Source of the DNA: a bacterium
GTDB taxonomy: Bacteria; Zhuqueibacterota; Zhuqueibacteria; Residuimicrobiales; Oceaniaggregativiventaceae
Direction: 5' to 3'
Length of the DNA stretch: 64,000 nt
NCBI GenBank assembly: GCA_029565675.1
Contig: JAKQNP010000032.1
Location: 124,001-188,000, forward strand
Shown: in pieces, positions 22,290 to 33,158 of the stretch
Numbering within the stretch: position 1 is the stretch's first letter
Layout: each line of letters starts with the position of its first letter
The notes under the pieces: model-generated
Seen by the model: only the letters and a program-made list of their open reading frames with translations
What the model was told of the DNA's origin: nothing
Databases searched by the model: none
Program-made: the position numbers and the translations under genes

Positions 22290-23552
22290 CTATGCATGAT
22301 TGGCGATGGTGCTGCCTTCTGAATAGATTTCCTGGGTTGCACAGTCTGGTTTGACCTGTGGCTCAACAATCGAGTTTTTTCCCACAACGATATTATCTGG
22401 CAGGGCAGCTTCTTTGCCGATAACTGTTAAGCCGGAAAACAGATGATCCGGAAATTGGCGGTTTGGGATATGAGAGTCGCCCACACCGATCTGCGCATGT
22501 GCACCTATCCGGCTGCGTTTATCAGCAATGACCGAGTACAGGCAAGCTCCGTGCTCCGCCAGGCAATCCTGCATCAAAATGGAATCGTGTACACACGTCT
22601 GTTTTTTGATATGAACACCAGGCGACAAAATGGAATTGATCACCGTCCCCTCGACCACACAGCCATTGGAAATCAGCGAATTGCGAATAAGTGCAGTTTT
22701 ACCCACCCGAAAAGGCGGACGATCACCAATCATGCCGCGCTCTTGCATATTGGTATGGACTTTCCACTGTTGCAGATGTAAGCCTGAGCGGCTGTCAAGG
22801 ATATCCATACTGGTCTGCCAATAGGAGTGCAGAGTGCCGACGTCCGCCCAATAGCCCTGAAAACGGAATGCGAAAACTCGTTGGTTGTCGAGTGCGGCAG
22901 GGATGATGTGTTTGCCAAAATCGTGTCCGGAGCGAACTTCCAAAGCAGAGCGCAAAAAGTCGATATCAAAAACATAGATACCCATTGAGGCCAGATTGTT
23001 GCGCGCTTTTTTGGGTTTCTCTTCCCAATCGATGATGCGGTTTTTTTCATCAACAATGCCGATACCAAAGTGATGGGTATCTTCCCAGGGCACCTGCATC
23101 ATAGCGATGGTGACCAGAGCCTTTTTTTTCTTATGGAATTCGACCATGGGAGTATAGTCCATCTTGTAGATGTGATCTCCGGAGAGAACCAGGATGCGTT
23201 CGGCGTTGTATTTTTCAGCAAAATTCATATTTTGCGCCACCGAGTCCGCGGTGCCCCGGTACCAATCCTGATCCTTGATGCCGGTAGACGGCGGGAGAAT
23301 CGTCGCCGTCCGGGTCCGGCCGATCAGATCCCAGGCAGATCCATCGCCGATATGATCCATCAGGGAGTGGGGGCGATATTGAGTCAAAATGCCAACCGCA
23401 TTGATCTGCGAGTGCATGATGTTACTCAGGGTAAAATCGATGATGCGATAGTTGCCGCCGAACGGCACAGCTGGTTTGGCACGCAACCAGCCGAGAATAT
23501 TCAATCGGCTGCCCATCCCTCCTGCCAATAAAAACGCAACAGTTCGCCTCAT
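22290..23552 (-). CDS. glgC: glucose-1-phosphate adenylyltransferase (GlgC family), copy 1
   Basis: Makes ADP-glucose from ATP and glucose-1-phosphate for glycogen synthesis. 420 aa with a complete N-terminal nucleotidyltransferase: 'LLAGGMGSRLNILGWLRAKP' (8-27) keeps the G-x-G-x-R-L loop and the conserved Lys, then 'AVPFGGNYRIIDFTLSN', 'WYRGTADSV', 'ILVLSGDHIYKMDY' and 'EEKPKKA'. The C-terminal half is a left-handed beta helix with hexapeptide repeats, usual for allosteric control. The gene begins inside the last codons of the second copy (ATGA-type 4-bp overlap), so the two are translationally coupled and may form a mixed tetramer. Allosteric effectors cannot be read from sequence. No glycogen synthase or branching enzyme is in the window. 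Confidence 0.9.
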   Translation of the reverse strand: MRRTVAFLLAGGMGSRLNILGWLRAKPAVPFGGNYRIIDFTLSNIMHSQINAVGILTQYRPHSLMDHIGDGSAWDLIGRTRTATILPPSTGIKDQDWYRGTADSVAQNMNFAEKYNAERILVLSGDHIYKMDYTPMVEFHKKKKALVTIAMMQVPWEDTHHFGIGIVDEKNRIIDWEEKPKKARNNLASMGIYVFDIDFLRSALEVRSGHDFGKHIIPAALDNQRVFAFRFQGYWADVGTLHSYWQTSMDILDSRSGLHLQQWKVHTNMQERGMIGDRPPFRVGKTALIRNSLISNGCVVEGTVINSILSPGVHIKKQTCVHDSILMQDCLAEHGACLYSVIADKRSRIGAHAQIGVGDSHIPNRQFPDHLFSGLTVIGKEAALPDNIVVGKNSIVEPQVKPDCATQEIYSEGSTIANHA

Positions 23553-24817
23553 TGCAAAATCCTTTTAGCTGGCATGGACTGACTCGGAAAATCCGTTTCG
23601 ACTTTATTGGGATAAATCACACAGCCCGAACCGATGTGATAATGGGAAGGAACCCGGCTATTTCTGCCGATAATGGTGATGTCGGGAGAGGATGCACTTC
23701 CATCCGCGACCTGGCTGCCATTTGCCGTTCGGCCTACATGTGCGCCTTCGCCGATTTCAACCTCCACATCGGTGATCGTTTTATCGACCACGGCACCCGA
23801 ATGTACCACGGTGTCGTACATCAAAATGGAATCACGCACCGTGCTTCCGGCGCCAATCCGCACACCTGGAAATAAAATGCTGTTCTCCACTGAGCCCTCG
23901 ATGATACAGCCATTATAAACCAGTGAATTCAACAGCAGAGCGGAAGAACCGACCAATGATGGCGCGCGTTCATGCAGGTTTTCATTGAACAAATTGGTGC
24001 GCACATTCCATTGTTCGATTTGCAGAGGAGAGGATTCAGTCAACAGCTCCATATTTGCTTGCCAATACTCCTCGATGGTGCGGGAATATCCCCAGTAGCC
24101 TCTGAATTTATAGCCGACGATATGGTAGCGATCGAGGATATGGGGAAAGAGATCGCGGCCAAAGTGATCGCATCCGCGCTTCATTTCGCTTTCAAGCACC
24201 TGATTGAGCACCCGGCGGTTGAACAAATAAATCGTCATCGAGACCCAATCTGAGATCGTCTCATTCGGTTTTTCGACATAGTGCAGCAGTCGACCACCGT
24301 ACTTTGAGGTGTTGTCGATGACGCCTTGCCCAAAACGATCAAGTGAAGGTTCGTTCATCTGCACGAAAGCCAGCGAAATCTGCGCTTTTTGCTCTTCGTG
24401 AAATTGAATAAGCTTTTGGTAATCCATTTGATAGATATGATCGCCGGAAAGAATGAGAACATAATCCGAATCGTTGCGGTTTATAAATTCGAGATTCTGA
24501 TAAACCGCATCGGCGGTACCGGTATACCAATCCGAACTCCTTGTGCCTTTCATCGGCGGCAAAAGGCTGATGCCGCGTTGGCTGCCGACCATATCCCAGC
24601 TGGCGCCGGAGCCGATATGGTTGATCAACGAATCAGATCGATACTGCGACAGGATACCGACTCGTTCGATCCCGGAGTTCATCAAGTTGCTCAGGGGAAA
24701 ATCGATGATGCGATAGAGGCCGCCAAAAGGCATAGCAGACTTGGGGCGGTGGATGGTGAAGACGCTCAATTCATCCACACGACCGCCGGCCAAAACCATT
24801 GCGATCGTCTTTTTCAT
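23549..24817 (-). CDS. GlgC-family nucleotidyltransferase paralogue with altered N-terminal loop, copy 2
   Basis: 422 aa, homologous over its whole length to the following gene (for example 'YRIIDFPLSNLMNSGIERVG', 'WYTGTADAVYQNLEFI', 'ILSGDHIYQMDY', 'VEKP', and the hexapeptide-repeat C-terminus). It differs where it matters: the glycine-rich loop reads 'LAGGRVDELSVFTIHRPKSA' (9-28), without the canonical G-x-G-x-R-L spacing, although Lys26 aligns with the conserved Lys. Either it is a functional ADP- or NDP-glucose pyrophosphorylase of a divergent subfamily, or it is a regulatory partner of copy 1, as GlgD is of GlgC in Firmicutes. I favour a heteromer because of the 4-bp overlap and order, but catalytic activity is not excluded. 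It begins about 50 bp after the giant CHAT-like gene. Confidence 0.85.
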   Translation of the reverse strand: MKKTIAMVLAGGRVDELSVFTIHRPKSAMPFGGLYRIIDFPLSNLMNSGIERVGILSQYRSDSLINHIGSGASWDMVGSQRGISLLPPMKGTRSSDWYTGTADAVYQNLEFINRNDSDYVLILSGDHIYQMDYQKLIQFHEEQKAQISLAFVQMNEPSLDRFGQGVIDNTSKYGGRLLHYVEKPNETISDWVSMTIYLFNRRVLNQVLESEMKRGCDHFGRDLFPHILDRYHIVGYKFRGYWGYSRTIEEYWQANMELLTESSPLQIEQWNVRTNLFNENLHERAPSLVGSSALLLNSLVYNGCIIEGSVENSILFPGVRIGAGSTVRDSILMYDTVVHSGAVVDKTITDVEVEIGEGAHVGRTANGSQVADGSASSPDITIIGRNSRVPSHYHIGSGCVIYPNKVETDFPSQSMPAKRILQ

Positions 24818-24869: not shown

Positions 24870-27800
24870 CTAGATTGAAGAATTCCATACCCTAAAGCGG
24901 CTCCATTCGCTCGGATGGCCATTCACATCCAGGCGGATGATGCGCTGAGCCCGCATACATGCTTGAGCGGCAGAATTTCCTTCTGCCAAAAACTGGAAAA
25001 ATCGCTTGGCAAAAATATAGGATGACATCGGATCATTCGATTTTTCGCCCAGGATCAACGAAGCAACACCTCCAGCAGCGAGTGAGCGCAACCACACCGA
25101 TTGAGCAAACCCACCGATTCCATCGGCAGCAGGCAAAACCACAACAGGCGCCGCTGATCCCTGCCTGATTGCCTCATAGGCGGATAGACCAACCTCTCCG
25201 GAAGGACCCGGGAGCGGAACGACACTTAAAAATGGATTGAACTTGTCGCCTGACACGGTATTCCAGGACAAATAAAAAGCTCCTTTTATCTCCGGCAAAG
25301 AGAAATCATCCTGCGACCGAATCTCGACGACTGGATAGTGGTTCTCGATGGCGGCGATCGCCTGTACCTGGTAACGATTGCGCATCGCATCAGCCGATAG
25401 CTGAATGGTATTATCGATGAGCAGAACCATCGGTTGTTCACCGATTTCTGCAGTCGATCCTTCGGAAGCAACGAGGCGTTCGAACAAAAGCGGCAAACTG
25501 GTATAATAGTTAATGGCCAATCGTTCGCCCAGTGACGGCCCGGCAGGAAGCGGCAGCGCAGTCAGGGGCAGGTTGGCAAGTGATCCATTCGTTACCACCA
25601 ACAGCTGATCGAATTCTTCCCATTGCAAATTCAGGGGCTGCAACAACCTGGCCGACCAATCGGTCAGGTCGCTGTCTACATTTTCCTGATGGTCCAGCTT
25701 GCGACCGAGTTCCAACAACAGCGAGTCGCGTTCTCCTGGAGCAAACCGCAGCCAGACTCCGCGGATAGATGGCTTGGCCAAAGCCCAAACGAACACATCA
25801 TCCTGCAAGGCATCGAGTTTCAAAAGCACCGTTCGCTCGGGAAGGTGTTCTTGCAGCATGGCCACGTCAGGTGAAGCGCCGCCACCCAGTTCCGCCCAAG
25901 CAGGCTGCTGGCGAGAAAAATCGCGGCCGGCTTGATCGACTTTTTGTCTCTGCTGAACGAGCGCGGTCGACTCGCGGTCTGACGGCAGGAGATTGCTGTT
26001 GCGGGAAACATTCTGAAGGATTTGGAACTGCATGCGATTGAAAGACTGTTGTGCTTGGATCAGAGTTTGCCAACTTTTTGCCGCCAGGGAATCGGCAAAC
26101 ACAAAAGGCCGGCTGCCGAGCTGGTGCTTGAAGCCGATTGCCATCGCTCGGTCGCTGAGCGTCCAAGCCAATTTCATTTCATTGCGGCTGATCAATTCGC
26201 CGATCCTTTGATGGAGCAATTTCTCAGCGGGCTCCAATTCGCGCAGGATCCAAAGAGCCGGCAAAGCTTCCTCAGAGGATTCGAGAAGAGAAAAGGCTTG
26301 ATCATAAAGATCGGCAGTGGCAACGCCTGAACCGGACAGAGACAAAGCTGTTTTGAGTTTGCTGCGCCAGGCGATTTCGGGTATCCAAAGAGCAGTTGCC
26401 TGCTCAGCCACTCTTCGCCACTCTTGCGCCGTTTGGTGAGGATCGCGATTTTTTTCCTCAACATGGAGGACGACGAAATCAGCGATCAAGTTCTGGAGCG
26501 GATCCTGAGTAATCCGGGCCCGTTCCTGGCAAAAGTTAGCTGCTTGACTCGCTGTTTTTAAATCCGAAAGCGATTTGGCCAAACACGCGAGATTGACGAG
26601 GCGATCAAAGCGATCAGCGCCGGCAATTGAATCAGCGTCAACCGCTCGTTGAAGGCTCAAGAGTGCCTGTTGGACAAAACCTTGGCGAAGCTGAATCTGG
26701 GCCTCCAGTTCGGACAAATCGCCCGTTCCAAAGCCGGACAGACGTTGGCGCAGAGCTCGAACCCGTTCGGCTGCGCTGACGTAGTCGTGTTGCTGAAGAT
26801 CGATCTTGGCAAATAAAAATTCGGCTTTGAGTTGAATGTTTTCATCACCCAACTGCAACGCTTTCTGCAGATAGTCGACGCGAATATCCTTCATCTTGTA
26901 ATGCTGATGCGCCAGGTCGAAATAGGTGGCGGCCAATTGATCCGGCAAACTCTTTTTCTCCAGCAGCAGCAAAGCGTTTTGTCTATCGGTGAGAGCAGCA
27001 TGGAGATTGCCGAGATTCTCATTTGCCTGCGCTCGCAACCGCAGCGCGCGCACTTGCATCGACGTATCTTTTAAAACCGCAGATTCTTTTAGTGCAACGG
27101 TCAAGGGATCGATTGCGATTTCAGAGTCGTGATATCTTTCCATAGCGATGCGCGCCAACTCTATCTGACATCGCAACACGCCATGGCGGTCGCCGCTTGC
27201 ACGAAAGCGGGACTGTGCTTGTTCAAACCACTCAACCGCCAGGCTGCCATCGCGGTCACAATCCGCTGTTTGGGCGAGATTAAAATAGGCTTCTCCGGCT
27301 TTTGAATGCAATCCATAGCGAACGGCGAACTGGCGATACTTCTCTTCCGCTGCTTTAGCTGCGGCAGCATCGCCATGGGAGCGGTGAAGAACAGCCAGGC
27401 TCATCCATGCCGATGCAATGGCCGCGCGGTTATGCGATTGTTGCGCTCGCTGCAGCAAGGCATTTTGACTTTCGACAGCGGTCCGCCAGTTGCGGCTGAT
27501 GATTGCAGCCTTGCGCAAGCCGTTCAAAATGCCAACCTGCTGTTCCGGTGTCGTTTCCTCATTGGCCAGCGCCTGTTCAAAGACAATGACCGCCTCGTTC
27601 CATCTATGTTCTCGGCTCAGCTGTTCAGCTCTTTCCAGAGCGGACAATATTTGGCTGGTGGACAATCTCTCCAACTCTTGTTGTCGAGATGAGAAAAAAC
27701 CGTACAATTGCCCGATACCAACACCTCTTTGTTCGACTGCTTGATCAAAAGCCTGAGCAGGTGGAAGATCCTGATATGCCTGATAGAAGTGATATAAAAA

Positions 27801-30800
27801 TTCATCTGCTTCCTTGCCGGCTTGCGGAACGACCAGCAGGCCGCTGACACCGCTAAAATAAAGTGCCCTCTCGAGCAACAAAAATGCATCGGCTGCCTTT
27901 AATGCGACAGGCGATTGCTCAAATTGCAAAACTGCCAAGCCAGCATTGGAGCGAAAGGATAAAAATGCCGTCGGTTCGAATACAGCGGGCAGTGAATTGC
28001 GAATAAAAAAGCCCAGTTTGCTCACTGTGGGATTTAGAACATTCCACTCGGTTTGCAAGGAGAGATGAAAAATGTCGGCATTGCGCAGATACTCAAGTTG
28101 ATCGACAAAACTGTTCTGGTCGGGGTTTTGCACTGGCAGATAGGGTGTATAGCCAAGAGAAGCGATGCGGTCAGCCATGGTCTGGCTGGTGATATAGATA
28201 TGCTTCCCCGCTTGTTTGCGATTTTCCATGGAAGCTTGCAAGGAAGACAGGCTTGAAAGCAGAAAGAGGGGCCGATGCAGACTATCGGCTTGCCGCCATA
28301 TGTTTGTCCACGGGTAGAGCAAAAATGCAGGATCCGGGATCAACACCAGTTGTTGCACTTTAGATCGCTGCAAAACAGGGGCAAAAAGTTCACGCAGCGA
28401 TTGCTGTGACTGAGCGTCGTCGGCTGCAAACGCTTCTTCGATCTGTCGACGGCTCAATGAGAGCGGCCGAGCTATCACTTCATCGGCTGTAACGAGCCAG
28501 CTCAGCATAAGACGTTCGAGGTCATAAAAGCAGAGCACCGCGTCGCCGGGGTCGAGAAGTTGCTGCACGGTCGCAACCGATGTTGGTGTTTTGCTCAGCA
28601 AGGATTCCAAGCGCGGTGCGTCACGGCGCATCACCGCCATAAGCTTTTCAAAGGTATCGAGTTGATTGTTCAGCTCTTGCCGCAGTTCCGCACGATTTTT
28701 CGTGACCAGCTCGGTTTGCAAAATTTTTAGCTGCAAGCGATGGATCTCATTTTGTTGATTGCGCGCTGTCTGCAACAATTCATCACTGCGTTTATCCGCA
28801 AGTTGCAGATCTGTGGCGAACAGCAAATCGCGAAACCGGCTCTGATGCAGTCGTTCTATGGCATCCAAAGCGCTGTCATCCAACCCCATTTCCCAGAGGT
28901 ATTGTGCCTCGCGGAAAAAGGGCGTTTTTCGGGTTTGCCTAAGTTCGACACCCAACAGACCGTCAGCTTCAACTGCTTGTGTTTCGAGGACCTCGATAGC
29001 TTCGGCATAGTATTCAAGCGGATGAACGGATATGCCGAGTTCCTTCTGCTGCTGCCAACCGATTTGGTCGATCAAATCACCAAGAAAACAATCGACCCGC
29101 CATAAAATATCAAAATAGCCATAATTAAGCGCCAGCCATCGGCTACGCAGAAAAAGTTGATAGGCTTCGGGAAGGTCACCGATCGCACCGGAGATGCGGC
29201 CGAGGGTAAAATTTGCCGTGCATTCTTCGCGGCTCATGCCTCGACGCAAACTTGTGGTCAGCGCCTGTTGCACCACCTGTCTTGCGTCGGTGAATTGTTG
29301 CAGAGCGCGTTGTGCCGGTGCCAAATCGCCGGAAGCTGACTGCAAAATCTTGTCTTGTGCGGCTGTCAAAAGGAGTTCACCCAACTCCAGCTGAGCGCGC
29401 ACGACCTCTTCCTGAAGCCCAATCATCCCTTGAATGGCTCCGATGGCCTCCCGTAGTTCTGCAACCGCCTCCATTTCATAAGTAATCCATGACGCATCTG
29501 ACCGGCTGTCGAGCCAGCGCTGGTTCTTTTCACTTTGGATCAGGCGGCACAGATTGACACAATTGGTGATCCAACCGTAGTTGAGTTTGTTCTCTTTGCA
29601 TAAAGACAAAGATCTTTCGAAATTGATGCGGGCTTGCGAAAAATTGCCGTCGAGAAAATGGAGATATCCCAGGTTATTGAAAAACGTCGCCCGCACCTGG
29701 GGGTCCTGGTTTTTGTCGTTGAGCTGTAATTTTTTCTGCATATAATCGATTGCAGCCGCATAGGTCTTTAACTCGCGGTAACTCGAACCCAAAATAGAAT
29801 AGATCAGCGCGCGTTCATCGCGGGTCGAAAAGCCATTTACACTGGCTGCCCCGGCCGGCGTCAAATCGATAAAGGGCAGCGGCGCGTACAAGCCGAGAAA
29901 ACCGAGTTTGATGCGCTTGGGTTTATAATCAACATTTTGCACATGGCCGGAATCGATCAAATCCAATGCGCGCTGTGCGGAATCGATGGCTGAATTGACT
30001 TTTCCAGCGAGCAAATAGTTGTAGGCGATGCTGCGCAAGCTCATCATCTGTTCATTGAAGAACCGATGTTTTTCTTCAAACTCAGCCGCCTGAGAAAAAC
30101 AGTTGATCGCTTGCAGCGGTTGATTGGAGTCCTGATAAAGCAGCGCCAGCCTTTTCGTGCATATATAGTGTTCATCTTCCATTTCGAGATCGCGATAGAG
30201 GTCGATGGCGTGCTGCAGATACCGTGGCCCGAGCTGGTAGTCTTCGGCAATCAGAGATGCATGCCCCAGCCGTTCATAGACCAGAGCTTCACGACGTCGA
30301 TCGATAAATGTCGAATCGTATTTCAGTTTGACCAGATAATATTCATAAGCCCTTTCCAGACCATATTCTCCAAGTTGGTAATAATTATTGGCCAGGTTCA
30401 AGGCTATGGTCGCTTCGAGAGTGGGATTCTTTCTCTCATCGTTCAAGGCCAGCGCTTTGGTCAACTCGTGAATGGCGCGTTCAGCATAGCGCGGCGGTTT
30501 TCCTGCACGATAGAAGGTGATGGTTCGATAGAGAGAAAGCGGTGGAGCAACAATGCTTTCATACAAACGGGATAAAATGGATTTAGGCTTGGATTCTTGC
30601 TGCGTAAGGTAGTGCTCCATCATCTCATAGTTATAGGCGATGGTCAGGTATCCTTCGACGAGGGCATAATCGAAAGAAAGTGCCCTGGCGATGGTCGCGC
30701 TCGATTCGGCCAAAAGCTTGGGGTTAAAGCCATCCGGATCGCCGCCCAATTCAGCCTTTGCAGTTGCCTGATAGGACAACGCCAGACCAAGGGCATAGAT

Positions 30801-33158
30801 CAGAACATTGTCTCTGCTGTTAGCGGCCGCGATTCTGCGATACTCTGCAACGATCTGGTCGATCTGGTACAACCGATATGAAGATTCGATATATCCTCGG
30901 TGACCGTGCAAACAATGTGGATCCACTTCGATCGCCCGCTGATAGCGTGCTCGGGCGAGGTCGAATTCCTGCAAAGCTTTGAACTCGTCAGCAGCTGCAA
31001 GGAGCGACTGAACAAGAGCTGTTCTTGCTTGCTCGGCAAAAGCCAGCCTTGCTGATTTGTTGCTGTCGATGACCTTTATCAGATGTTCATAGCCCTGATC
31101 CGTTTTGTTCAATTTGAACAGGCACTGTGCCTGAGCGATCTGGGCGATCAAGGACTCCTCGTAGCCAGGGAAATCTTGTTCGATAGAGCGATAAGCGGTC
31201 AGGGCTTGATCAAACGCGTGCTGCTGAAAGGTCAAATCAGCCAATTGCAGCCGTGCTCTTGCCACCAACAGGGTGTCATTGGGGTAGGTTTGGATCAATG
31301 CGCGCAATTTCTTTTGTTGCTCTGGCACAGGCTGGTCGCTGTCGACCCAAAAAGCCAATATCGCTTGCCGTGCGGCTTTGGCCCACTGATCCTGGTCAGG
31401 ATATTCTTTCAGCACACGGCGATAAGCCTCGATAGTTGTCTGGCGCCCGCCCTGCTGTTGCAGCGATTGCGCGATGCGAAAAAGACTTTCGGCACAATGA
31501 CCCCGCAATTGGGGGAAATTCGCACATACCGCGCTGTAATACTTGCGCGCATCATCCATTTGGCCTTCGCTTCGGTAGAGTTCACCGATTGCAATGCGGG
31601 CTTCTGCTGAAGGTCTTTCTTGATCGGCAAAAGTTCGCGAAATAGAGGCCAATCCCTGGCGCAACAGCGAATTGCGTTTTTGTTCGTCGGCACCGAGCGT
31701 ACGGATGCGCAAAAGCGCCAACTCGGCATACGCGGCAATCGAGCGATTGTTGCCAGAGCGCTGCAAAGTCATCTGCAAACCGCTCGACGCCTCTTCGTAA
31801 TGGCCGAGCAACAACAGACAAACGCTTTCTTCATAAAGGGCGTTAACCGCAAGCGCATGATTGAGGCCATGAAAATCGATAACCCGACGAAAAGCCAGGG
31901 CACGATCCCACAATTGTTTTTGTTCGTCGGTGCTCAGCGACTCTGCGTCGATAGCGAGAAAAAGCGGGCCCAGGACGTCCCGTGAAAGCGCAGCCGGCAA
32001 CCTGACATCTTGCGCAACTGAAAATTGTTCTTCATGGGAATCCGCGCGGGGCACTCTGCCATGTATGGGGATAGACCAAACATCAAAATTACCCTGTTCA
32101 TCAGAAGAGTAATAGACACGCCCATCGCTTCCGCCCCAAGGTTGGATTTGTTGTGCAACAGACCAGGCGAGAGGATAAGCGTTTTTGACCATCCGCAGGT
32201 TAAAAGAACGGCGCAAATCCGGCGACAAAGAATCTTGGTGGGTGACAGCCTGGGGAGTTCGGTTCACCGCAGCAAGCCAGATCACCCCTCTATCAGCCGG
32301 GCTGACTGTGCCGTCGCTGTTGGTATCGGTGTCATAGCGCAAAAATACCACAGCAGTTGCATCCGAAGACCAACTTGGAAAGCCGTCGAGAGCCTGACCA
32401 TGGGTCAATCGATAGGTCGGGTATTCTCTATCGTCGCTGACCGGGGCATCCGCGGGCGTAGGACGTGATCCCTTGAGGTGGATGATATAGATATCGCCCT
32501 GATTGCCGGCTGGACCGCGGAAAGAGGAAAACGCGATCAGATCCTGCAGCGGGCTCCACACCGGATGCGTTCCCCCGAGGTAGGTCAATTGGAGAGTTTT
32601 TCCGGTATTGTAATTGAAAAACCAGATTTCGTCTTGGCCAGAACGGTCTGACACCCAGGCGATTTTTTTGCCGTCCGGTGACATGGTCGGATAGCTGTCA
32701 TAACCGCGGTAGGTGGTGATCTGCTCGGGTTGACCTTTTGGAATCAGCTGGTCGCCGGCCTCGCGCAATTTGAGAAGATAAATATCGCCAGCGGCGTCAC
32801 TGCGTTGTGAGACAAAAACAAGGGTTCGGCTGTCCGGCCCCCAAGTCGGGTAGAGATCATCGGCTTTATTGAAGGTAATCTGATAGGATCGCCCGCCTTT
32901 GACATTGGTCACCCAAATATCGTAATTGGCAGCCTGTCGGTTGACATAAGCTACCCATTTGCCGTCCGGTGAAACTCTGGGGGACAAGTCGATGTCAGGG
33001 TGAGTGGTTACCTGCAGTCCAGCAAGCAGCGCGGCTGGGGCGGGGACCGATAACGCAAAAGCAAAGAGCCACAAAATCAGCACAGTGGTCAGCAAACGGT
33101 TTCTGCCGGCAAGAAACCCTCTCGAACAATCGCGATTGTAGTTGGTCGGCTTTTGCAC
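24870..33158 (-). CDS. giant exported protein: PD40 propeller, two TPR superhelices, two CHAT-like domains lacking catalytic residues
   Basis: 2762 aa, the longest gene here. A basic N-terminus and h-region (22-42) ending 'APAALLA' predict a signal peptide. Residues about 55-390 form a TolB/PD40-type beta-propeller with at least five repeats ('PRVSPDGKWVAYV', 'YPTMSPDGKKIAWVS' type). Then comes a long TPR array (about 400-1500). Residues about 1530-1815 have a CHAT-like fold ('VLIPDPAFLLYPW'), a second TPR array follows (about 1830-2400), and a second CHAT-like domain (about 2440-2762, 'LLVVTNGSLANLPLTALPLP') closes the protein. Neither CHAT copy keeps the protease dyad: the first has 'IFHLSLQTEW' at His1698 where H-x-x-x-H-G is usual and no Ser-Ala-Cys; the second has 'AFYLSW' and 'VVVLPAADG'. 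A scaffold rather than a protease is inferred. GTG start, TAGTG overlap with the upstream DUF1318 gene. Confidence 0.85.
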   Translation of the reverse strand: MQKPTNYNRDCSRGFLAGRNRLLTTVLILWLFAFALSVPAPAALLAGLQVTTHPDIDLSPRVSPDGKWVAYVNRQAANYDIWVTNVKGGRSYQITFNKADDLYPTWGPDSRTLVFVSQRSDAAGDIYLLKLREAGDQLIPKGQPEQITTYRGYDSYPTMSPDGKKIAWVSDRSGQDEIWFFNYNTGKTLQLTYLGGTHPVWSPLQDLIAFSSFRGPAGNQGDIYIIHLKGSRPTPADAPVSDDREYPTYRLTHGQALDGFPSWSSDATAVVFLRYDTDTNSDGTVSPADRGVIWLAAVNRTPQAVTHQDSLSPDLRRSFNLRMVKNAYPLAWSVAQQIQPWGGSDGRVYYSSDEQGNFDVWSIPIHGRVPRADSHEEQFSVAQDVRLPAALSRDVLGPLFLAIDAESLSTDEQKQLWDRALAFRRVIDFHGLNHALAVNALYEESVCLLLLGHYEEASSGLQMTLQRSGNNRSIAAYAELALLRIRTLGADEQKRNSLLRQGLASISRTFADQERPSAEARIAIGELYRSEGQMDDARKYYSAVCANFPQLRGHCAESLFRIAQSLQQQGGRQTTIEAYRRVLKEYPDQDQWAKAARQAILAFWVDSDQPVPEQQKKLRALIQTYPNDTLLVARARLQLADLTFQQHAFDQALTAYRSIEQDFPGYEESLIAQIAQAQCLFKLNKTDQGYEHLIKVIDSNKSARLAFAEQARTALVQSLLAAADEFKALQEFDLARARYQRAIEVDPHCLHGHRGYIESSYRLYQIDQIVAEYRRIAAANSRDNVLIYALGLALSYQATAKAELGGDPDGFNPKLLAESSATIARALSFDYALVEGYLTIAYNYEMMEHYLTQQESKPKSILSRLYESIVAPPLSLYRTITFYRAGKPPRYAERAIHELTKALALNDERKNPTLEATIALNLANNYYQLGEYGLERAYEYYLVKLKYDSTFIDRRREALVYERLGHASLIAEDYQLGPRYLQHAIDLYRDLEMEDEHYICTKRLALLYQDSNQPLQAINCFSQAAEFEEKHRFFNEQMMSLRSIAYNYLLAGKVNSAIDSAQRALDLIDSGHVQNVDYKPKRIKLGFLGLYAPLPFIDLTPAGAASVNGFSTRDERALIYSILGSSYRELKTYAAAIDYMQKKLQLNDKNQDPQVRATFFNNLGYLHFLDGNFSQARINFERSLSLCKENKLNYGWITNCVNLCRLIQSEKNQRWLDSRSDASWITYEMEAVAELREAIGAIQGMIGLQEEVVRAQLELGELLLTAAQDKILQSASGDLAPAQRALQQFTDARQVVQQALTTSLRRGMSREECTANFTLGRISGAIGDLPEAYQLFLRSRWLALNYGYFDILWRVDCFLGDLIDQIGWQQQKELGISVHPLEYYAEAIEVLETQAVEADGLLGVELRQTRKTPFFREAQYLWEMGLDDSALDAIERLHQSRFRDLLFATDLQLADKRSDELLQTARNQQNEIHRLQLKILQTELVTKNRAELRQELNNQLDTFEKLMAVMRRDAPRLESLLSKTPTSVATVQQLLDPGDAVLCFYDLERLMLSWLVTADEVIARPLSLSRRQIEEAFAADDAQSQQSLRELFAPVLQRSKVQQLVLIPDPAFLLYPWTNIWRQADSLHRPLFLLSSLSSLQASMENRKQAGKHIYITSQTMADRIASLGYTPYLPVQNPDQNSFVDQLEYLRNADIFHLSLQTEWNVLNPTVSKLGFFIRNSLPAVFEPTAFLSFRSNAGLAVLQFEQSPVALKAADAFLLLERALYFSGVSGLLVVPQAGKEADEFLYHFYQAYQDLPPAQAFDQAVEQRGVGIGQLYGFFSSRQQELERLSTSQILSALERAEQLSREHRWNEAVIVFEQALANEETTPEQQVGILNGLRKAAIISRNWRTAVESQNALLQRAQQSHNRAAIASAWMSLAVLHRSHGDAAAAKAAEEKYRQFAVRYGLHSKAGEAYFNLAQTADCDRDGSLAVEWFEQAQSRFRASGDRHGVLRCQIELARIAMERYHDSEIAIDPLTVALKESAVLKDTSMQVRALRLRAQANENLGNLHAALTDRQNALLLLEKKSLPDQLAATYFDLAHQHYKMKDIRVDYLQKALQLGDENIQLKAEFLFAKIDLQQHDYVSAAERVRALRQRLSGFGTGDLSELEAQIQLRQGFVQQALLSLQRAVDADSIAGADRFDRLVNLACLAKSLSDLKTASQAANFCQERARITQDPLQNLIADFVVLHVEEKNRDPHQTAQEWRRVAEQATALWIPEIAWRSKLKTALSLSGSGVATADLYDQAFSLLESSEEALPALWILRELEPAEKLLHQRIGELISRNEMKLAWTLSDRAMAIGFKHQLGSRPFVFADSLAAKSWQTLIQAQQSFNRMQFQILQNVSRNSNLLPSDRESTALVQQRQKVDQAGRDFSRQQPAWAELGGGASPDVAMLQEHLPERTVLLKLDALQDDVFVWALAKPSIRGVWLRFAPGERDSLLLELGRKLDHQENVDSDLTDWSARLLQPLNLQWEEFDQLLVVTNGSLANLPLTALPLPAGPSLGERLAINYYTSLPLLFERLVASEGSTAEIGEQPMVLLIDNTIQLSADAMRNRYQVQAIAAIENHYPVVEIRSQDDFSLPEIKGAFYLSWNTVSGDKFNPFLSVVPLPGPSGEVGLSAYEAIRQGSAAPVVVLPAADGIGGFAQSVWLRSLAAGGVASLILGEKSNDPMSSYIFAKRFFQFLAEGNSAAQACMRAQRIIRLDVNGHPSEWSRFRVWNSSI

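Follow-up and report, generated by a model that had tools for sequence, protein, structure and literature searches.

What does a giant, putatively exported bacterial protein do with two caspase-like protease domains that both lack their catalytic residues? The question is raised by a gene in a window of 64,000 nucleotides from a bacterium of the phylum Zhuqueibacterota, whose product was read, in the original prediction, as a double pseudoprotease that serves as a binding scaffold in the periplasm. Comparison with homologues leads to a more differentiated answer: judged from their sequences, most relatives apparently carry one dead and one seemingly intact caspase-like protease domain, and in the window's protein the second is dead as well.

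Architecture and Export Signal

The start of the gene overlaps the stop of the preceding DUF1318 gene (TAGTG); the features of its product and of the neighboring genes are collected in Table 1. Profiles, AlphaFold2 models, and hydropathy bear out the predicted order of the chain, namely a signal-peptide-like segment, propeller, TPR, CHAT, TPR, CHAT. The hydrophobic N-terminal segment is found in all 38 aligned sequences that have an N terminus, and it may mark the family for export across the inner membrane. In some homologues (L059, L019, L060, and L061), a lipobox-like Cys stands close to the N terminus; therefore, the family may include lipoproteins. Conservation is deepest in the propeller together with the first TPR block rather than in the CHAT domains, and the most conserved stretch of the homologue alignment (residues ~790−1120) lies within that block.

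Table 1. Position of the Features in the Window and Evidence for Their Assignment
Feature	Position	Strand	Evidence
Bacterial alpha-2-macroglobulin, 1912 aa	16649..22387	−	CLEQ thioester-type motif at residue 1438
Two tandem nucleotidyltransferase/hexapeptide genes	22290..24817	−	
Giant protein, 2762 aa	24870..33158	−	GTG start; ORF open end to end
N-terminal signal-peptide-like segment, residues ~1−42	33033..33158	−	Hydropathy peak 2.56
TolB-type PD40 beta propeller, residues ~49−385	32004..33014	−	PF07676 5.2e-28; TIGR02800 6.6e-32
First TPR block, residues ~400−1400	28959..31961	−	TPR_12 2.5e-19
CHAT1, residues 1530−1835	27654..28571	−	AF2 model, structure match to TPR-CHAT, PF12770 in relatives
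Q1702, catalytic His position of CHAT1	28053..28055	−	Homologue alignment
E1747, catalytic Cys position of CHAT1	27918..27920	−	Homologue alignment
Second TPR/helical block, residues ~1850−2420	25899..27611	−	Pfam, model, homologue alignment
CHAT2, residues 2426−2762	24873..25883	−	PF12770, AF2 model, structure match to separase/TPR-CHAT
N2633, catalytic His position of CHAT2	25260..25262	−	Homologue alignment
A2678, catalytic Cys position of CHAT2	25125..25127	−	Homologue alignment
DUF1318 (YdbL-like) protein, lipoprotein-type N terminus, 186 aa	33158..33718	−	PF07027 3.8e-10
AsmA/DUF748-like protein, 1096 aa	33726..37016	−	PF05170 9.2e-12
Large TPR protein, 1524 aa	56877..61451	−	
Large TPR protein, 792 aa	61546..63924	−	

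Predicted Fold of the CHAT Domains

Propeller and TPRs scored strongly in the Pfam and NCBIfam scans of the giant protein; with Pfam, no CHAT was detected at E ≤ 10 when the protein was scanned at whole length, and a PF12770 profile scan of the window's genome gave no match. Scanned alone, CHAT2 of the window reached 26.6 bits against PF12770, above the curated cut-off of 24; CHAT1 scanned alone had no Pfam match, and the profile was matched by 36 of 43 homologous CHAT1 domains and by all 38 CHAT2 domains (E ≤ 0.01). The expected kinship with CHAT is thus visible directly for CHAT2 and through its relatives for CHAT1.

The alignments used as AlphaFold2 input, A1 (43 sequences, window residues 1390−1835) and A2 (38 sequences, window residues 2280−2762), are homologous to each other (hhalign probability 100, E 2e-62). 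The model of CHAT1 had a pLDDT of 92 and a pTM of 0.91; that of CHAT2, with 75 and 0.79, respectively, was weak around the active-site part. Both models matched TPR-CHAT/Csx29 and separase (Foldseek, VIA-align) with Z about 23−24, so a caspase/CHAT fold is predicted for the two domains, as anticipated. As for separase, its Peptidase_C50 profile gave weak matches in 15 of 38 CHAT2 homologues; CHAT2 of the window had no sequence match to this family and is not assigned to it.

State of the Catalytic Dyads

The intact CHAT2 motif of the family reads F-(S/A)-C-H-(G/A) ... S-A-C-E-T-G, and it is held by most relatives. In the window, neither CHAT has the His/Cys dyad (H-G/A ... S-A-C), as the original prediction had it: Q1702 and E1747 stand at the catalytic positions of CHAT1, N2633 and A2678 at those of CHAT2. 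An extended alignment of 51 rows, which includes the window, outgroup phyla, and fragments, was used to follow the dyads through the family. In CHAT1, the catalytic Cys occurs in none of the 51 rows, the catalytic His in two, and there is no conserved Cys column; because the Cys is missing in all ~50 aligned homologues, CHAT1 looks like an ancestral, fixed pseudoprotease of the family. In CHAT2, the His is present in 40 of 45 rows and the Cys in 38 of the rows holding the column. With the CHAT2 dyad intact in most of the family, other phyla included, its loss in the window's family (Cys to A2678, His to N2633) and in a neighboring group is, on this alignment, secondary. The survey of homologues therefore agrees with a dead CHAT1 everywhere sampled, and it disagrees with a dead CHAT2 as a property of the family.

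Within the losses there is a gradation. The congener G001 has T-W-H-A at the His site of CHAT2, with His kept and Cys lost, and the Cys is also absent from G002, G006, G016, G017, G019, and G021. That a sequencing error accounts for the missing dyad was considered and rejected, as the Cys loss is common to G001, G002, and the second group. In a quick tree of 51 sequences, the window's family stands apart from the group of G006, G016, G017, and G019; a careful tree of 27 sequences joins the two dyad-lost groups in an unsupported node (47/4.8). Given this disagreement, the dyad losses in the window's order amount to one or two events. In the Delongbacteria homologues L108 and L109, CHAT2 is divergent and shows the motifs P-D-H-T or P-N-H-T and S-G-C-D.

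Distribution of the Family

Homologues are mostly 2500−2880 residues long, have a similar architecture, and occur throughout the phylum and in a few other phyla. A single-sequence search of genome contigs returned no homologues; an alignment-based search of the contigs found them. Named matches belong mostly to candidate division KSB1, which we take to be Zhuqueibacterota, and also to LCP-89, Delongbacteria, and unplaced MAGs; a description of Zhuqueibacterota is available (PMC11683472). Two cyanobacterial loci (L112 and L113), with 24% identity over part of the query, were set aside as general TPR similarity. A search of one literature library found no study of any family member, of a TolB/TPR/CHAT protein, or of a CHAT pseudoprotease; the giant protein apparently belongs to a large family of putatively exported bacterial proteins that is seemingly undescribed.

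Gene Neighborhood

Upstream of the giant gene lie the DUF1318 and AsmA-like genes, neighbors that the original prediction leaves unmentioned. The DUF1318 protein scored 40.6 bits against PF07027 (cut-off 27) and matched Escherichia coli YdbL (hhalign probability 93%, E 2.9e-7); homology of its lipoprotein-type N terminus to YnbE was not found (3%, hhalign). As for the AsmA-like protein, its match to PF05170 is above the cut-off and that to PF05359 (5.6e-12) below; hhalign detected no homology to E. coli YdbH (probability 0.7%), and PF11739 (YdbH) matched nothing in the window's genome at E ≤ 1.

The gene order is conserved. In the 49 genomes with both genes on one contig, the DUF1318 gene precedes that of the giant, directly so in most genomes, with a median gap of 120 bp and within 700 bp in 45 of the 49. 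A DUF1318-type ORF just upstream of the giant is also found in LCP-89 (L103), a Lac Pavin MAG (L104), G104, and L118; none was seen at this place in the Delongbacteria homologue L109.

Regarding the other genes of the window, the tandem nucleotidyltransferase/hexapeptide genes are found downstream of the giant both here and in G003. The alpha-2-macroglobulin, an exported protease trap, is encoded close to the dead exported protease gene. In the two large TPR proteins, Pfam finds little but TPR-type repeats.

Comparison with Known Systems

Separase, an active eukaryotic enzyme, has helical repeats followed by a caspase-like domain, like the giant (VIA Z 22.8 for CHAT1 and 23.9 for CHAT2); it differs in having neither propeller nor export signal and only one unit. 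Separase holds a pseudo-half and an active half, and a dead CHAT beside an intact one may recall this arrangement by analogy, with the difference that the giant family duplicates whole TPR-CHAT units.

Csx29, the TPR-CHAT protein of type III-E CRISPR (PDB 7y85, 8eex, 8d9f), also has TPRs followed by a CHAT fold, with VIA Z of 23.3 for CHAT1 (7y85) and 23.3 for CHAT2 (8d9f). Csx29 is an active endopeptidase (PMC10028731) and contributes one TPR-CHAT unit to the CRISPR complex, whereas the giant has two tandem units behind a propeller and a putative signal peptide, with the dyads lost. DdvA (PDB 8rot, 8rw5), too, is bacterial and membrane-linked and has a CHAT-type domain (VIA Z 19.4 for CHAT1 and 16.7 for CHAT2), but it is titled a transmembrane anti-sigma factor; in the library searched, no relevant paper dealt with its CHAT part.

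The N-terminal half recalls TolB and CpoB of the Tol-Pal system, because a PD40 propeller (TIGR02800, the TolB equivalog, 110.9 bits, under the equivalog cut-off of 343) is followed by a YbgF/CpoB-like TPR (56.9 bits); both scores are under the equivalog cut-offs, and the giant is a single chain and not a TolB.

As for the operon, the E. coli locus has the order ydbH-ynbE-ydbL (PMC8593681), and the window similarly encodes a large AsmA-like protein, a lipoprotein, and a DUF1318 protein in this order. In the window, however, the lipoprotein-type N terminus and DUF1318 are fused in one chain, and the third gene, that of the giant, is without counterpart in the E. coli locus. Since the AsmA-like protein is unmatched to YdbH, the parallel is limited to the layout and to YdbL. 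The neighbors are reminiscent of a bridge that carries lipids from one cell membrane to the other; without YdbH homology, this link draws on the gene order, the match to AsmA, and the homology with YdbL.

Proposed Role and Alternatives

The explanation that we favor, to which we give an even chance of being right as a whole, is that the giant serves an AsmA-DUF1318 envelope module as its propeller/TPR platform; a proteolytic activity of relatives would be lost here. The family would work in the periplasm, with the DUF1318/YdbL-like lipoprotein and the AsmA-like protein as module partners, the latter probably bridging the membranes; the module may serve lipid or outer-membrane upkeep. Propeller and first TPR block would be the working core that binds these partners, the CHAT1 pseudoprotease may hold a partner or a substrate, and CHAT2 in most members would be a cysteine protease cutting a substrate recruited by the platform. 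In the window's lineage, the Cys would have been lost first and the His after; both being gone, the protein would keep the platform or binding role only. Some lineages without CHAT2 or without both CHATs keep the propeller, the TPRs, and the DUF1318 and AsmA-like genes; in G028 and G033 (L048 and L049, family f7), the propeller and TPR core are present and CHAT is not detectable at either place. As the core is conserved and the CHATs are dispensable in these lineages, the propeller/TPR chain is taken as the platform and proteolysis as an extra that most of the family retains.

The weight can instead be placed on proteolysis: a phylum-wide exported protease, made of an ancestral pseudoprotease and an active copy on one propeller/TPR chain, would belong to the core of the AsmA-DUF1318 intermembrane module and control it by cutting, and some lineages, including that of the window, would keep the platform only. 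We regard this version as tentative, somewhat short of an even chance.

More doubtful is that the second half of the protein in the window's lineage is a functionless relic, drifting toward loss, so that at most CHAT1 would remain at work beside the propeller and the first TPR block. G003, of the window's own family, would provide the end point of such a drift, as its protein stops after CHAT1 at 1843 residues with the whole second half missing; that of G068 ends there as well. G074, first counted as a second-half loss, has ORFs that suggest a frameshift near the contig end, so the quick tree may count one change too many. The CHAT2/TPR1 distance ratio is 1.5−2.5 in dyad-lost pairs versus 0.4−1.6 in dyad-intact pairs, and this, like the weak active-site part of the CHAT2 model, fits a relic. 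However, the frame is still open for ~900 codons in several dead-CHAT2 lineages, and CHAT2 of the window still exceeds the CHAT cut-off. In addition, the dN/dS of the dead CHAT2 of G016/G019 is about 0.32, to be compared with 0.09−0.20 for intact CHAT2 in four pairs and 0.17−0.25 for CHAT1, all being pairwise estimates without error bars that leave out the too distant query-G001 pair; constraint on the dead domain is therefore weaker but real in that pair.

It is unlikely that the giant has an exported role of its own and that its place in one operon with the AsmA-like and DUF1318 genes reflects expression only. A conserved operon need not imply that the three proteins interact physically, and the proposed interaction is read from the gene linkage; furthermore, several lineages encode one partner apart from the giant, with the giant adjoining the AsmA-like gene and DUF1318 elsewhere in G030, G044, and G053 (family f11), and the giant adjoining DUF1318 and the AsmA-like gene on another contig in several genomes of families f8, f12, and f13. 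These same split arrangements mean that pairwise links survive rearrangement, which argues against a purely shared expression. Joint presence and absence across 82 genomes of the phylum does so too, with counts of 56/4/2/20 for DUF1318 (Fisher p 3.5e-13) and 58/2/0/22 for the AsmA-like gene (Fisher p 5.4e-18), both p values ignoring phylogeny; the exceptions without DUF1318 are incomplete genomes.

The double pseudoprotease originally proposed has become improbable. The missing dyads and the export signal of the window's protein speak for it, and we infer that a binding scaffold may describe what this protein does; the prediction is contradicted for the family as a whole by the intact CHAT2 dyad of most members, and it stands for the window's lineage only. 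The lower conservation of both CHAT domains relative to the TPR core in this lineage also speaks against it. Finally, that one of the window's domains retains protease activity through a displaced dyad is hardly credible: H1698 is common to 30 of 51 aligned CHAT1 rows, but the sole Cys of residues 1390−1835 is C1543, on the first strand modeled for CHAT1, and that of residues 2400−2762 is C2734, placed by the CHAT2 model in a late helix, both off the nucleophile position, so that sequence and secondary structure reveal neither a regular nor a shifted intact dyad; the same lack of Cys in G001 and G002 and of a Cys column in CHAT1 agrees with this.

Significance

The best-known examples of CHAT proteases come from signal-gated systems of the cytoplasm, the CRISPR Craspase among them. 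If the proposed role is true, caspase-like proteolysis would reach the cell envelope through a conserved, exported CHAT family coupled to an AsmA/DUF1318 envelope module. In addition, the family offers a natural series, from an intact dyad through loss of the Cys alone, loss of both residues, and absence of half of the protein to the lack of any CHAT, in which the change from enzyme to pseudoenzyme may be studied while the chain stays in use.
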